Source of the DNA: Chloroflexota bacterium
GTDB lineage: Bacteria; Chloroflexota; Anaerolineae; Anaerolineales; Villigracilaceae
Assembly (NCBI GenBank): GCA_016191845.1
Contig: JACPVF010000016.1
Coordinates: forward strand, 124,001-188,000
Length of the DNA stretch: 64,000 bases
Direction: 5' to 3'
A program made the position numbers and the translations under genes. The notes under the pieces were generated by a model. The model had not been told where the DNA came from. It saw only the letters and a list, made by a program, of their open reading frames with translations, and ran no database searches. Positions 5,078 to 61,751 of this stretch are shown in pieces. Position 1 is the stretch's first letter, and every line of letters begins with the position of its first letter.

Positions 5078-8000
5078 ATGAAGTATCGTGACCTTATTCA
5101 ATTCGAGCCAGTTGTTGATGTAATTCAGCTTCGCCAGGCGGACGAGAAGAAACGTGCCGAGAAGTTGGTCTCAACGTACGTGATCTCCGACCGCATGACG
5201 GACGTGATTTTGCACCGCATTCTGCCCAGCCTGAGTATCGGCGGCGAGAAGCCAGGTGACGGACTGTTCATCGTCGGTAACTATGGGACGGGTAAATCGC
5301 ACTTGATGTCCATTGTGACTGCGATTGCAGAGCACAAGGATTTATTGAAGCACGTGACTCACCCTGCGGTCGTTGAGGGATTAAAGCCGATTGCAGGGAA
5401 ATATAAAGTTGTACGCCAGGAAACGGGTGCGACTGAAAAGAACCTGCGCGACATCGTCCTTGAGGATTTGGAAAAGCACCTCAAAGAAATGGGGGTGAAA
5501 TATCACTTCCCTCCGATGGATAAGGCTTCGAGCAACAAGGAATTAATCGTCGAGATGATGGAAGTTTTCCAGAAGGTTTATCCTGGCTACGGTTTGCTGG
5601 TGGCGATGGACGAATTGCTGGATTATTTACGCGCTCGCAAAGATACCGAATTGGTACTGGACCTGAACTTCCTGCGCGAGATCGGTGAGGCGTGTGAAAT
5701 TACGCCCTTCCGCTTTATGGCAGGTATTCAGGAATCGTTGTTCGATAGCCCGCGCTTCCAATTTGCAGCGGACTCGATTCGTCGCGTGAAGGCACGCTTT
5801 GAGCAGGTGCGTATTGTGCGTGAAGATATGGCATACGTGGTCTCGCGCAGATTGCTAGCGAAGAATGATGGACAGCGTAAACAGGTTCGCAAGCACTTGG
5901 AGAAATTCACCAAGTTATACGCTGCAATGGCGGAGCATATTGATGAGTATGTGGAACTCTTCCCCATTCATCCCGCCTATTTGGAAGTGTTTGAGCAGGT
6001 GAATGTTGTTGAGAAGCGTGACCTATTAAAAGCGCTCAGCAAGCAGATGGAAAACCTGCTCGATCAGGATGTGCCAGCCAATGAGACAGGCTTGTTCTCG
6101 TTTGACTCATATTGGGCAATCTTGAATGATGATCCGTCTTACCGTTCGGTGCCAGAGATTCGGGATGTGCAGGATAAGGCGCGGGTGCTGGCAGAGCGTG
6201 TTCGGACGGCGCCGAATGTCAAGGATTACCGACCCGCCGCGAACAAGATCATCGCCGCGCTGGCAGTTCATCGCCTGACGTTGAATGATTTGTATGCGCC
6301 CGTCGGGTTGACTCCCGCTGAGTTGCGCGACAATTTGTGTATTTATCTGCCCATCCCCGAGCAGGAAGCGGACTTTCTTTTGACTTCGGTGGAAGCCGTG
6401 TTGCAGGAAGTCTCCCGTGCGGTGAATGGGCAATTCATCTCGCACAATAAAGAGAACGACCAGTACTATCTCGACCTGAAAAAAGATATTGACTTTGACG
6501 CGCTGATTGACCAACGCGCTTCGTCCTTGGATGAAACCCAACTAAATCGCTACTTCTTCGACATGCTGGCGCGTGGCTTGGAGTTGACCGATAGCGCGTA
6601 CGTGCCTGGGTTCCGCATTTGGGAGCGGGAACTGGCGTGGACGGGTCAGGGGATGACGCGCAAGGGATATGTATTCTTAGGGGCGCCGAACGAACGCTCG
6701 ACCGCCCAGCCAGAGCGCGATTTCTACATCCATTTTCTTGCGCCGTTTTCAACGGAAAAGATCAAGTTAGATAAGAAGGCTGACGAGGTGTATTTCGCGC
6801 TCGGACAAAAGGATGATGACTTCGAGCAGACCATGAAGCGCTATGCGGGTGCGCGTGAGATGAGTTCGATCTCATCAGGGAGCAACAAGGAGCAATACGA
6901 GCGTAAGGCGGATACCTTTGGGCGCAAGTTAAATACCTGGCTGAGAGAAAACATTACGCGGGCGGTCACGATTCGCTACAAAGGCGAAGAGATGACCGTG
7001 CCAGAGGCATTGTCGAAACATCGCCTGACCATTCGCGATCTATCGCTGCGTGAGCAAGTTTTCAAACTGGCTTCGGCATTTTTGAGCGAGCAATTTCAAA
7101 AGCAGTATCCGCTTTACCCGAAGTTCAGCGGCATTGACTTTACCTTCGAGACGTTGACCCAAGCCACAGACGGCACGTTACGCGCGATTGCAGGCAGTTC
7201 TGCCACAAAGCCCGCGCAAGTGGTCTTGGAAGGGTTAGGACTCGCTCACATGGAAAACGGCGAGTTGACCTTCACCACCGAAGACAGCCCGTATGCCAAG
7301 CACGTGTTGAAATCGCTGTTTGCGTTGGACGCCAGTAAGGTACTCAACCGCAAGGATTTGATCGGCGGTCCGAGCAATGCCGAAGTGGATCATAAATTTG
7401 GGTTGGAGCCTGAATGGATGATGGTGGTTTTGCTCGCGTTGGTGAGACAAGGCGAGATCACGCTGAACCTGCCTGGGATCCGAATCGATTCGACCAATTT
7501 GGATGAGGCGGCGCGGATGGGCGTGGAAACGCTGATGAAGTTCACCGCGGTTAGCCGCCCGAAGCCCATCCCTGAACAATCGCTGAGGGTGTTATTCGCC
7601 AGCCTTGACCTGCCCGAAAATTTGGTGACTGATCCAAAGAAACTAGAATTGGCTCCCATTCAGTTGGAAGCGTCGGTTAGCGCAGAATTGAATCTGGTGG
7701 TGCGCTTGCTGGAAAATTTGCGCGAAGGTCCGCGCTATTGGCGCGAGTCGCTTTACTCGGCGGCGCAGTTGCAGGAATTACGCAGTGAGTTGACCGAGTA
7801 CAAGAATTTTCTGACTTCGCTGCAGGCGCTCAACAGCCCTGGCAAGTTGCGCAACTTCTCCACGGGACAGGGCGAGGTGCGCCAAGTGATGCGGACGCGC
7901 AAAGTGGTGGGCGAGATCAAAGCCTTGTATGAGTTGATCCAAGCCGTGCAGCCGCAGTTGGAGTATGTCTATTCGTCGGAAGTGAATTTGCCGCTGGATG

Positions 8001-8907: not shown

Positions 8908-11685
8908 ATGCCGAGAAAAAAGCAGACCAACATCGAACAGCCCGAATTGATCGCGGAAGAAGCGGCGGAGTATATCGTCTCGCCTGATGAAGAAGCCCTG
9001 CGCACGGAATATCGCCAGCGGCTGGCAGAGGCGTTAAAAGACCCTGAGTTTCGCCAGATTGAAGGCTTTCCCATCGGGGAAGATGAAGCGATTCTCGCGC
9101 TGTCTGACCCGCCTTATTACACGGCTTGCCCCAACCCGTTTTTGAATGAGATCGTGGAGAAGTGGCGGCAGGAACGCGCCGCGCTGCGCGATGAATTAGG
9201 CTTGCCCAACGATGAACCTGCGAGAAGCAAGTACGCCATCCGCGAAAATATGCCGACCAAGAATTATCACCGTGAGCCGTTTGCCGCGGACGTTTCGGAG
9301 GGCAAGAACGACCCGATCTACAACGCGCATTCGTATCACACCAAAGTGCCGCATAAAGCCATTATGCGCTACATCCTGCATTACACCGACCCTGGCGATG
9401 TGGTCTTGGACGGTTTTTGCGGGACAGGCATGACAGGTGTTGCTGCACAGATATGTGGTGATAAAAAGACTGTAGAGAGTCTTGGCTACTCAGTTAAAGG
9501 AAATGAAATCATTGACGAAGGTAAAAAAACACTTTCACGCTTAGGTACTCGTAAAGCAGTCCTTAATGATTTATCCCCAGCAGCAACTTTTATCTCATCT
9601 AATTACAACGCATATGCCAATGCGCGTACTTTTGAACGAGAAGCCAAGCGAATCTTAAAAGAAGTTGAAGAAGAATGTGGTTGGATGTACGAGACTACAC
9701 ACACTGACGGAAAAACCAAAGGAAAGATAAATTTTACGGTTTGGTCGGATGTATTTGTATGTCCAAATTGTAGTAATGAAATAATTTTTTGGGATATAGC
9801 AGTTGACAAGAATAAAGGTGAAGTAAGCGACACATGGAATTGCCCTAGTTGCGCTACCCTGCTTGCAAAAAATCCAGCAAAGAACAGCGGCGCGCAAAAA
9901 GCAGATCGCGCTTGGGAAACTATTTTTGATCAGGCTCTTGGAGTCACGACCCGCAGGACGAAGTTTTATCCTGTGATCATCAATTATTCTGTGGGAAGCA
10001 AACGATTTGAAAAGCGCCCTGACAAGGCAGACTTATCGATGGTGCAAAAAATCGATGATATGCCTATATCATTTTGGTATCCATCTAGCCGCATGCGTGA
10101 TGGCGATGAAAGCAGAAGAAACGATGAGCATGGAATCACTCATGTTCATCATTTTTACACACATCGAAATCTGTTGGTTTTATCTGCTATTTGGAATAAG
10201 GTTAGGCAAAGTAGCGAAAAAAGGTGTCTCTTTTGGTTTACATCCACTCTTACGTGGTGTGGAAAAGAAAACCGACTTCACTTAGGAAATTACTTCGGAA
10301 AAACTGGTGGTGTCATCACAAGTCTTCGGGGAACTTGGTATATTGCTTCTTTATCGGTTGAAACAAATGTTATCGAAAGATTTCGGCTTCGATTAAGCAG
10401 TTCCCAGTATGAAAGCAATTTCCGCCTTGGCGATTCTTTAATTTCAACGCAATCAATTACTTCTATTCAATTACTAAAAGACGAGTCTATTGACTATATA
10501 TTTATCGATCCACCTTTCGGGTCTAACCTTATGTATTCAGAATTGAATTATATATGGGAGGCATGGCTTCAAGTCATAAATAATAATGTCTCGGAAGCAA
10601 TCGTTAATAAAACTCAACGTAAAAAATTGCGGGATTACCAATCGCTTATGGAACTTAGTTTCAAGGAGTTTTATCGCCTTCTTAAACCTGGGCGATGGAT
10701 GACTGTTGAATTTCATAATTCTCAAAATTCTGTTTGGAACTCAATCCAAGAAGCAATTCTTTTTTCGGGCTTTATGGTCGCAGATGTTAGAACGCTAGAT
10801 AAAGGAAAAGCAACCTTTAAACAAGTGACGACAACCTCAGCGGTAAAGCAGGATTTGGTAATATCAGCCTATAAACCAACGGCGGAATTTGAACGGAAAT
10901 TCATCACAGAAGCAGGTACTCCTCAAGGGGCTTGGGATTTTATCCGCGAACACTTGGAGCACATTCCATTGCCGTCTCTACAAAAAGGCAATATTGAGCC
11001 ACTGAGTGAACGTATGCCTTATCTTCTATATGACCGCATGGTAGCATTTCACATTCAACGCGGGTTAACCGTTCCGCTTTCCTCACCTGAGTTCTATCAA
11101 GGCTTGAGTCAACGGTTTTTGGAACGAGAAGGCATGGTCTTCACTGCCGCGCAAGCCGCCGCCTACGATAAATTACGCCTGCAAGCCGAGCGCGTCGAGC
11201 AACTGGCTTTGTTCGTCACGGACGAAAGTTCCGCCCGCCAGTGGCTGCGTCAGGAATTGGAACATGAGCCAAAAACCTACGGCGACCTGCAACCGAAATT
11301 TGTCCAGCAGTTACACCAGTCCAAGTATGAAGACCTGCCCGAACTCAAAGTCATTTTGGAGCAAGCCTTCCTGCAAGATGACAAAGGTCGCTGGTATGTC
11401 CCCGACCCAGAGCGCGCCGCAGACCTTGAGAAACTACGTCAAAACGCCTTGCTGCGTGAGTTCAACGAATACCGCAAGGGCAAAGGCAGGCTGAAAGTCT
11501 TCCGCAGCGAAGCCGTCCGCGCAGGGTTTAGTGTCGCCTGGCGCGAGCGCGAGTATGACGTCATTGTGGAGATTGCCGAGCGTATGCCCGAGTCCGTGCT
11601 GCAGGAAGATCAGCAGTTGCTCATGTATTATCACAACGCTGGGCTACGTCAGTCCAGTCAACCCAAGCAGGAGAATCTTTTGTAA
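8908..11685 (+). CDS. DNA adenine/cytosine-N4 methyltransferase with zinc ribbon (defence operon, gene 3)
   Basis: A 925-residue DNA methyltransferase. It carries the SAM-binding motif VVLDGFCGTGMTG (near 165-177) and the catalytic motif DPPFGS (near 534). A second SDPPYYTACPNPF stands near 66, so the motif order is unusual. A zinc ribbon CPNC...CPSC lies between about 286 and 315, as in 'adenine-specific methylase with Zn-ribbon' proteins. It would modify host DNA so that the rest of the system spares it, which is an inference from BREX/DISARM/Hma. The ends (to about 9420 and after about 11100) are GC-rich like neighbouring genes, while the middle is strikingly AT-rich, suggesting exchange of the recognition region. 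The next gene starts 12 bases downstream. Confidence 0.88.
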   Translation: MPRKKQTNIEQPELIAEEAAEYIVSPDEEALRTEYRQRLAEALKDPEFRQIEGFPIGEDEAILALSDPPYYTACPNPFLNEIVEKWRQERAALRDELGLPNDEPARSKYAIRENMPTKNYHREPFAADVSEGKNDPIYNAHSYHTKVPHKAIMRYILHYTDPGDVVLDGFCGTGMTGVAAQICGDKKTVESLGYSVKGNEIIDEGKKTLSRLGTRKAVLNDLSPAATFISSNYNAYANARTFEREAKRILKEVEEECGWMYETTHTDGKTKGKINFTVWSDVFVCPNCSNEIIFWDIAVDKNKGEVSDTWNCPSCATLLAKNPAKNSGAQKADRAWETIFDQALGVTTRRTKFYPVIINYSVGSKRFEKRPDKADLSMVQKIDDMPISFWYPSSRMRDGDESRRNDEHGITHVHHFYTHRNLLVLSAIWNKVRQSSEKRCLFWFTSTLTWCGKENRLHLGNYFGKTGGVITSLRGTWYIASLSVETNVIERFRLRLSSSQYESNFRLGDSLISTQSITSIQLLKDESIDYIFIDPPFGSNLMYSELNYIWEAWLQVINNNVSEAIVNKTQRKKLRDYQSLMELSFKEFYRLLKPGRWMTVEFHNSQNSVWNSIQEAILFSGFMVADVRTLDKGKATFKQVTTTSAVKQDLVISAYKPTAEFERKFITEAGTPQGAWDFIREHLEHIPLPSLQKGNIEPLSERMPYLLYDRMVAFHIQRGLTVPLSSPEFYQGLSQRFLEREGMVFTAAQAAAYDKLRLQAERVEQLALFVTDESSARQWLRQELEHEPKTYGDLQPKFVQQLHQSKYEDLPELKVILEQAFLQDDKGRWYVPDPERAADLEKLRQNALLREFNEYRKGKGRLKVFRSEAVRAGFSVAWREREYDVIVEIAERMPESVLQEDQQLLMYYHNAGLRQSSQPKQENLL

Positions 11686-60954: not shown

Positions 60955-61689
60955 CTATTTCTTCTTCCATCTTGTGATCAACATCTTGACCCGCACCTGC
61001 ACACGTGCGTCGGCATTGGCCACAGCCCACGCTGATTGCGCGGACTGGTAGACGCTGTCTTCCAATTTCTCGAAGCCTTCCCACTCGTCTTCCATGAATT
61101 CCTTCATCTCGGACGGCGTGTCCCACGAATAGACGTAGCTGAAGAATTCCTCGCGCTCGCGGACGAACCATCCGCGTGACTCGGCTTCCTGCATGGCGCG
61201 GGTGGCGGCTTCATCGTCTGCAATGGCGATGGGCAGGTCGGTCAGGCGGCCCACTTCCACGCTGGACGCGCCCGAGGCGATCTCCACAGGCCAGCGCGCT
61301 TCGAGCGGACGCAGGTCGATTAGCACGCCATCGGGGACGAGCACTCTTCGGATTTCACCCAGAGCATGGACCATGCTCGCATGTTCCAGTCATCAGAGCG
61401 ACCAGGCCAGGATGGCGATGTCGAATTTCTCGTGCGGGAAGGGTAGATGGCGGGCGCTGGCCCCCGTCAGCGCGACGCGCGATTCGAGCCGCACGGGGCG
61501 GTCGGCGCAGGCCACGCGCAGGGCGTCCAGGTCGGGGTCGAAGGCGGTGACGTGGAGGGCTGAGTCAGCGTACAGCCAGGTCAGCCGCCCTTCGCCGCAG
61601 CCGACTTCCAGCACGCGTTTGTCGCGGAAGTCGGCAAAACGGTGAAGGGCTTTGCGTTCGAGGTTCTGGGGGTCACGTTGGAGGGTCAT
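60955..61689 (-). CDS. Class I SAM-dependent methyltransferase with two tandem in-frame UGA codons (possible selenoprotein)
   Basis: 244 codons in one frame if both UGA codons (61395-61393 and 61392-61390) are read through; otherwise two pieces of 98 and about 140 residues. AAGGA precedes the ATG at 61689. Motif I is VLEVGCGEGRL (near 26-36), then FDPDLDALR, and the motif IV region DIAILAWSL runs straight into UGA-UGA (positions 99-100), then LEHASMVHALGEIRRVLVPDGVLIDLRP. The sequence on both sides is intact methyltransferase with no other stop or frameshift. From memory, relatives read WSLCC here, so the UGAs replace Cys codons. A hairpin follows 11 bases after the second UGA. It may be a double-Sec protein or a pseudogene. 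The methyl acceptor is unknown. Confidence 0.7.
61362..61378 (-). promoter_or_regulatory. SECIS-like hairpin downstream of UGA-UGA
   Basis: On the minus strand GAGCATG, loop GTC, CATGCTC: a perfect 7-bp stem starting 11 bases after the second UGA. If the top G-C pair opens, the loop contains GGUC. I recall the E. coli fdhF SECIS as having 11 bases before the stem and GGUC in its loop. A bulged U seen in fdhF is not evident here. Confidence 0.4.
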
Positions 61690-61751
61690 AGGTCCTTATT
61701 TCGCGCTGCGAGGTCCCGTAAGGGGAGCGGAGGGGCGATGCTCTCTCGCCC

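Follow-up and report, generated by a model that had tools for sequence, protein, structure and literature searches.

Described selenoprotein methyltransferases and the locus

A 2026 review table of 119 prokaryotic selenoprotein families includes methyltransferases that contain selenocysteine (Sec, U), namely the MduS, ArsM and UXPK-star selenoproteins. Two consecutive Sec residues are described for algal PDI_e (GUGUU motif; PMC7539508), the sole adjacent Sec-Sec precedent found in the literature; it differs from the protein described here in being a protein disulfide isomerase rather than a methyltransferase and in its eukaryotic decoding. Adjacent Sec-Sec does not appear in the table of 119 families; outside that table, the family described here may be mentioned in the primary papers on MduS and related families (Haft and Tolstoy 2025; Haft and Gwadz 2023). 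Here, a predicted methyltransferase gene carrying two adjacent in-frame UGA codons was analyzed in a 64,000-nucleotide stretch of DNA (the window) from a Chloroflexota bacterium (Anaerolineae; Anaerolineales; Villigracilaceae; assembly GCA_016191845.1, contig JACPVF010000016.1, positions 124,001 to 188,000). A preliminary description had suggested a rare double-selenocysteine enzyme; the Sec machinery of the genome, the Sec/Cys alternation at the site and the intact relatives all agree with that suggestion. Sec is assigned to both codons (99 and 100) with great confidence, and the gene very probably represents a real, conserved selenoprotein family in the class of the source genome.

The window protein stayed below the cut-off of every NCBIfam model, and 49 members of its family gave weak shared-domain matches only. 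MduS (methyltransferase domain-containing double selenoprotein, NF045649) resembles it in combining a methyltransferase domain with two Sec and was the best selenoprotein match in NCBIfam, but the match (50.5 bits, cut-off 380) covered positions 24-145 only, and MduS has a 338-position profile, against 244 residues here, and the catalogued motif CxxU; the window protein is not a member. MduS was not found in 152 genomes of the source genome's own family (1e-60) or in 400 genomes of the phylum (1e-50). The ArsM selenoproteins (NF008823, NF041536 and NF041537) are likewise class I methyltransferases dependent on S-adenosylmethionine (SAM), with Sec and a possible soft-element substrate, and differ in their catalogued Sec motif (UxxG, NF008823); none of the 49 members passed an ArsM model, with best E-values of about 6e-10 for NF041536/NF041537. 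The methyltransferase/UXPK-star double selenoprotein (NF047649), also a methyltransferase with two Sec, scored 19.1 bits (cut-off 460), and the corrinoid-associated methyltransferase CpaM (NF043040), of which the window protein is not a member, scored 54.9 bits (cut-off 180). Plasmids and phages yielded generic methyltransferases and no full-length relative, and viral contigs yielded generic domain matches only. Judged by these comparisons, the putative double-Sec methyltransferase represents a new family of selenoproteins whose decoding is an unusual task.

Gene and reading frame

The gene lies on the minus strand (61689..60955) and comprises 244 codons from an ATG at 61689 to a TAG at 60957..60955. 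Within the frame, stops occur only at TGA 61395..61393 and TGA 61392..61390, directly after DIAILAWSL (codons 99-100); translation of TGA as Sec yielded a single protein of 244 residues, with UU at 99-100 and without a further stop. This is the frame given in the preliminary description, to which the strand is added here. The methyltransferase flanks reported there as intact belong to one Pfam domain, Methyltransf_11, which runs through the UGA site and extends over both TGAs (residues 27-124, 58.6 bits, cut-off 21.2). Features of the locus were as follows.

60955..61689, minus strand: predicted double-Sec methyltransferase coding sequence, UU at 99-100, TAG stop at 60955-60957 (TGA=U translation; same-length homologues; purifying selection in both halves).
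61691..61700, minus strand: possible ribosome-binding site AAGGA immediately 5' of the ATG (suggested by the sequence).
61585..61611, minus strand: SAM-binding motif I, LEVGCGEGR, residues 27-35 (alignment; coordinates via the reading frame).
61393..61395, minus strand: UGA 1, predicted Sec99; TGA in all UGA forms, Cys in Cys-Cys forms only (sequence and comparison).
61390..61392, minus strand: UGA 2, predicted Sec100; UGA or UGU/UGC among relatives, a minimum of 8 switches being required by well-supported branches (comparison and tree).
61362..61378, minus strand: hairpin GAGCAUG-GUC-CAUGCUC of the Sec insertion sequence (SECIS) type (covariation, codon bias, fold, same type in the genome's own SelD gene).

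Relatives and the state of codons 99 and 100

Relatives were collected by a scan of public genomes and by searches of the phylum and the own family, where 64/152 genomes carried the gene. Of 80 same-clade loci, 57 had UGA-UGA at codons 99-100, 20 had UGA-UGU/UGC and 3 had Cys-Cys; the 80 loci include some contigs counted twice and correspond to 64 distinct stretches. With the most distant member (L049) as the query, 12 more copies were found outside the own family; these and L049 itself, 13 distant copies in all (about 26-38% identity), were UGA-UGA or UGA-UGC without exception and all had the hairpin. The earlier statement that relatives have Cys-Cys was right only in part: among the relatives found, UU was commonest, UC second and CC rare. 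In a tree whose deep part is unsure owing to long branches, CC was placed once, nested among UGA forms, and UU and UC switched at least 8 times on well-supported branches. Homologues carry Cys-Cys or UGA-Cys exactly at the UGA-UGA site, and this correspondence of an in-frame UGA with Cys is a mark of bacterial selenoprotein genes. With U scored as C, both columns were invariant in the 49 aligned proteins, as were the acidic D51 and, in motif I, E28, G30, G32 and G34. Since UU, UC and CC interchange, the comparison suggests that what counts at the site is a pair of chalcogen side chains.

Two in-frame stops are the usual sign of decay, and the preliminary description had named a pseudogene as a weak point. 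That a pseudogene or a sequencing error accounts for the locus is nonetheless a negligible prospect: dozens of independent assemblies, drawn from several families, share the two codons, no other disabling mutations were seen in relatives, and the ratio of nonsynonymous to synonymous substitution rates (dN/dS) was about 0.1-0.3 both before and after the UGAs in almost every pair (a single near-identical pair was uninformative).

The same copies bear on a split gene, in which translation would stop at the UGAs and restart just downstream, and the two half-proteins would assemble. In 28/61 distinct copies the UGAs are followed by an in-frame ATG, but in 29/61 the codon that comes next is ATT, ATC or TTT; UAA and UAG were absent from codons 99-100 in all copies found, and the codons alternate instead with Cys. 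One compact domain spans the site, and the CC forms are a single continuous frame. A split gene is accordingly very improbable.

Two further observations concern individual relatives. One locus (L097, G064) holds two paralogues about 4.9 kb apart (5708-6145 and 10589-11020), both UGA-Cys. A contig labelled Solirubrobacterales (L012) carries a copy nearly identical to that of Anaerolineales L011, and the assembly is likely mislabelled or contaminated.

Selenocysteine machinery

The source genome (4.63 Mb, 99% complete) was searched for the Sec machinery, and all four genes that the preliminary description had proposed to look for were present. SelA scored 434 bits, SelB was found, the tRNA for Sec (selC, anticodon UCA) was detected by both Rfam and ARAGORN, and SelD was encoded by a gene that itself carries an in-frame UGA. 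Thirty-three nt after that UGA, selD has the hairpin GGCGCAG-GUU-CUGCGCC, of the same type as in the methyltransferase gene (7-bp stem and G-U loop). Because the type also occurs in the genome's own SelD gene, the genome's SelB plausibly recognizes it in the methyltransferase gene. SelA was found in 142/152 own-family genomes, CC-form carriers included, which leaves little contrast for co-occurrence, and the only SelA-negative genome carrying the methyltransferase gene is 78% complete. A further SelD-like protein, lower in score (63.5 bits, below cut-off) and lacking UGA, was seen at G000:C18:85036-85887 (L030).

The hairpin

Between the second TGA and the stem lie eleven bases (61389..61379), as first described. 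The stem strand GAGCATG (61378..61372) is followed by the loop GTC (61371..61369) and the complementary strand CATGCTC (61368..61362); with the closing G-C pair opened, the loop is GGUCC. Published rules for the bacterial SECIS place the loop 16-37 nt downstream of the UGA and describe a loop of 3-9 nt with an early G, a stem of 4-16 bp and a minimum free energy of -7.5 or below (PMC13188914). The window hairpin has a GUN loop that starts 18 nt downstream of UGA 2 (21 nt downstream of UGA 1), a 7-bp stem and a folding energy of -7.8 kcal/mol. Those rules do not require a bulged U, so the absence of one, previously counted as a weak point, is no obstacle. The gene region had no match in Rfam.

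These two codons and this hairpin recurred in every UGA-bearing relative found; the 3 CC loci lacked the hairpin. Across 37 distinct sequences, 259/259 cells were paired (100%), and pairing fell to 20-60% when the partner column was slid by one to three. Double changes were seen in 17 cells, a count that 0/500 shuffles reached (mean of the shuffles 5.8), with double-change counts inflated by the relatedness of the sequences. Two pairs covaried among the 61 distinct UGA copies: codon +5 base 1 with the last base of codon +9 (A-U 37, G-C 22, G-U 2), and codon +4 base 3 with codon +10 base 1 (G-C 57, A-U 3, G-U 1). Both involve mostly synonymous positions. The stem His codon was CAT in 63/63 copies, against 197 CAT:169 CAC elsewhere in the same genes, and the stem Ala codon was GCT/GCC in 63/63, against 44% elsewhere. 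RNA and protein constraint are naturally separated in one relative (L130), where the stem His is replaced by Arg (CAT to CGT) and pairing is kept by G-U. By this comparative evidence, the hairpin is under selection at the RNA level.

Decoding of the two UGA codons

We propose that the two consecutive UGAs are both read as Sec under the direction of a single SECIS starting 10-11 nt after the second UGA, in which case SelB would deliver Sec-tRNA twice in succession at one hairpin. An alternative is that only UGA 1 encodes Sec and that UGA 2 mostly terminates or is read as Cys or Trp by a near-cognate tRNA, so that the working protein would be UC-like. For this alternative speak the 20/80 copies with UGA-Cys and the stricter conservation of codon 99. 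A terminating UGA 2 would destroy the protein, yet the downstream part is under purifying selection; UGA-UGA is also the commonest state and is present in every distant clade, and both UGAs fall within the published 16-37 nt window. Single-Sec decoding is thus improbable, with a small chance of being correct.

Several points weigh against the proposal as a whole. We found no experimental precedent in bacteria for the decoding of two adjacent UGAs by a single hairpin. The hairpins of a few relatives, taken in isolation, fold weakly (-6.7 to -7.4 kcal/mol, just short of -7.5), and the folding energy of the window hairpin alone is unremarkable (z -1.3), so the hairpin evidence is comparative. As to the role of the protein, neighboring genes vary between clades, and gene context therefore yields hints only. 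Sec at both codons is, by the sequence evidence, the firm part of the proposal; the reaction is not.

Fold and active site

The predicted structure is of good quality (predicted local distance difference test score 92.9) and has a class I methyltransferase fold. A profile score above the curated cut-off, motif I and the Rossmann-like fold together place the protein among class I SAM-dependent methyltransferases. The small-molecule methyltransferases and cyclases TleD, RebM, AtmM and SpnF have a like fold (Z about 18-21) and share the loop after strand 4, in which UU replaces their Cys-His or His-His; they differ in being without Sec, in their low identity (about 15-21%) and in that the sequence match stops with the Rossmann-like part. 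Profile alignments match UU with Cys156-His157 of TleD and with the His-His of AtmM. His157 of TleD sits in the active site (PMC8159823). Because of this alignment, we infer that UU lies in the methyl-acceptor pocket.

Gene neighborhood and possible role

The adjacent selenols may bind a soft substrate, or activate it, so that it can receive a methyl group from SAM; such a substrate could be a metalloid, a metal or selenium species, or a thiol/selenol. As to the role, our best guess, a tentative one, is methyl transfer to a soft element such as As, Se or Hg. The joint proposal, that one SECIS directs two consecutive Sec insertions and that the methyltransferase uses the vicinal diselenol so formed as its catalytic group on the acceptor side, is put forward as similarly tentative.

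In the own clade, the neighbors are an alcohol dehydrogenase, an amidase, isoprenylcysteine-methyltransferase-like proteins, a radical SAM protein and a protein that by eye resembles uracil phosphoribosyltransferase, with no clear link. In another family (f105; L141, L143, L147, L150), the UU/UC methyltransferase stands beside yqeB in 4/4 genomes (315-339 bits in the 3 genomes scanned with the profile, cut-off 220), and an XdhC-type factor also adjoins in 2 genomes; XdhC is a candidate component of the selenium-molybdenum trait (PMC2432076). These adjacencies would fit a role in the maturation of selenium-dependent molybdenum hydroxylases, in which selenium species rather than an external metalloid are handled or methylated and the decoding is unaffected. 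The own-clade gene is not near yqeB, however, and yqeB occurs in 137/152 genomes, so its presence is uninformative; co-occurrence with yqeB was dropped as a functional clue on that ground. Such a maturation role is considered unlikely.

In one genome (G240; L098 3455-4189, minus strand), an ArsM-like methyltransferase gene lies directly downstream of the UU methyltransferase gene. It has an in-frame TGA in WFA-U-IAGA (UIAGA motif), followed by a possible GGU-loop hairpin, and probably encodes a Sec-containing ArsM relative that falls below all NCBIfam cut-offs; its Sec would be residue 198, beyond the domain and not at the UU site. This neighbor, and the vicinal Sec/Cys beside the SAM pocket, favor a narrower form of soft-element methylation, an ArsM-like metalloid methyltransferase with UU as the ligand pair for As (or Sb, Hg or Te). 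The UU pair is located elsewhere than the UxxG of ArsM, and the link was seen in one genome only; we rate this narrower form as rather doubtful, slightly less so than hydroxylase maturation. Together, the f105 and G240 contexts lean weakly to a selenium or metalloid role.

Significance

The predicted proteins add a selenoprotein family with adjacent Sec-Sec. Since standard annotation ends or starts such genes at UGA, members of the family are likely to be cut into two pieces throughout an entire environmental lineage. How one hairpin could serve two adjacent UGAs becomes a testable question, for which the natural UU, UC and CC variants are a ready-made series. If the proposed role is true, the family would use vicinal diselenol chemistry to methylate or handle a soft element, a chemistry used by no known methyltransferase.
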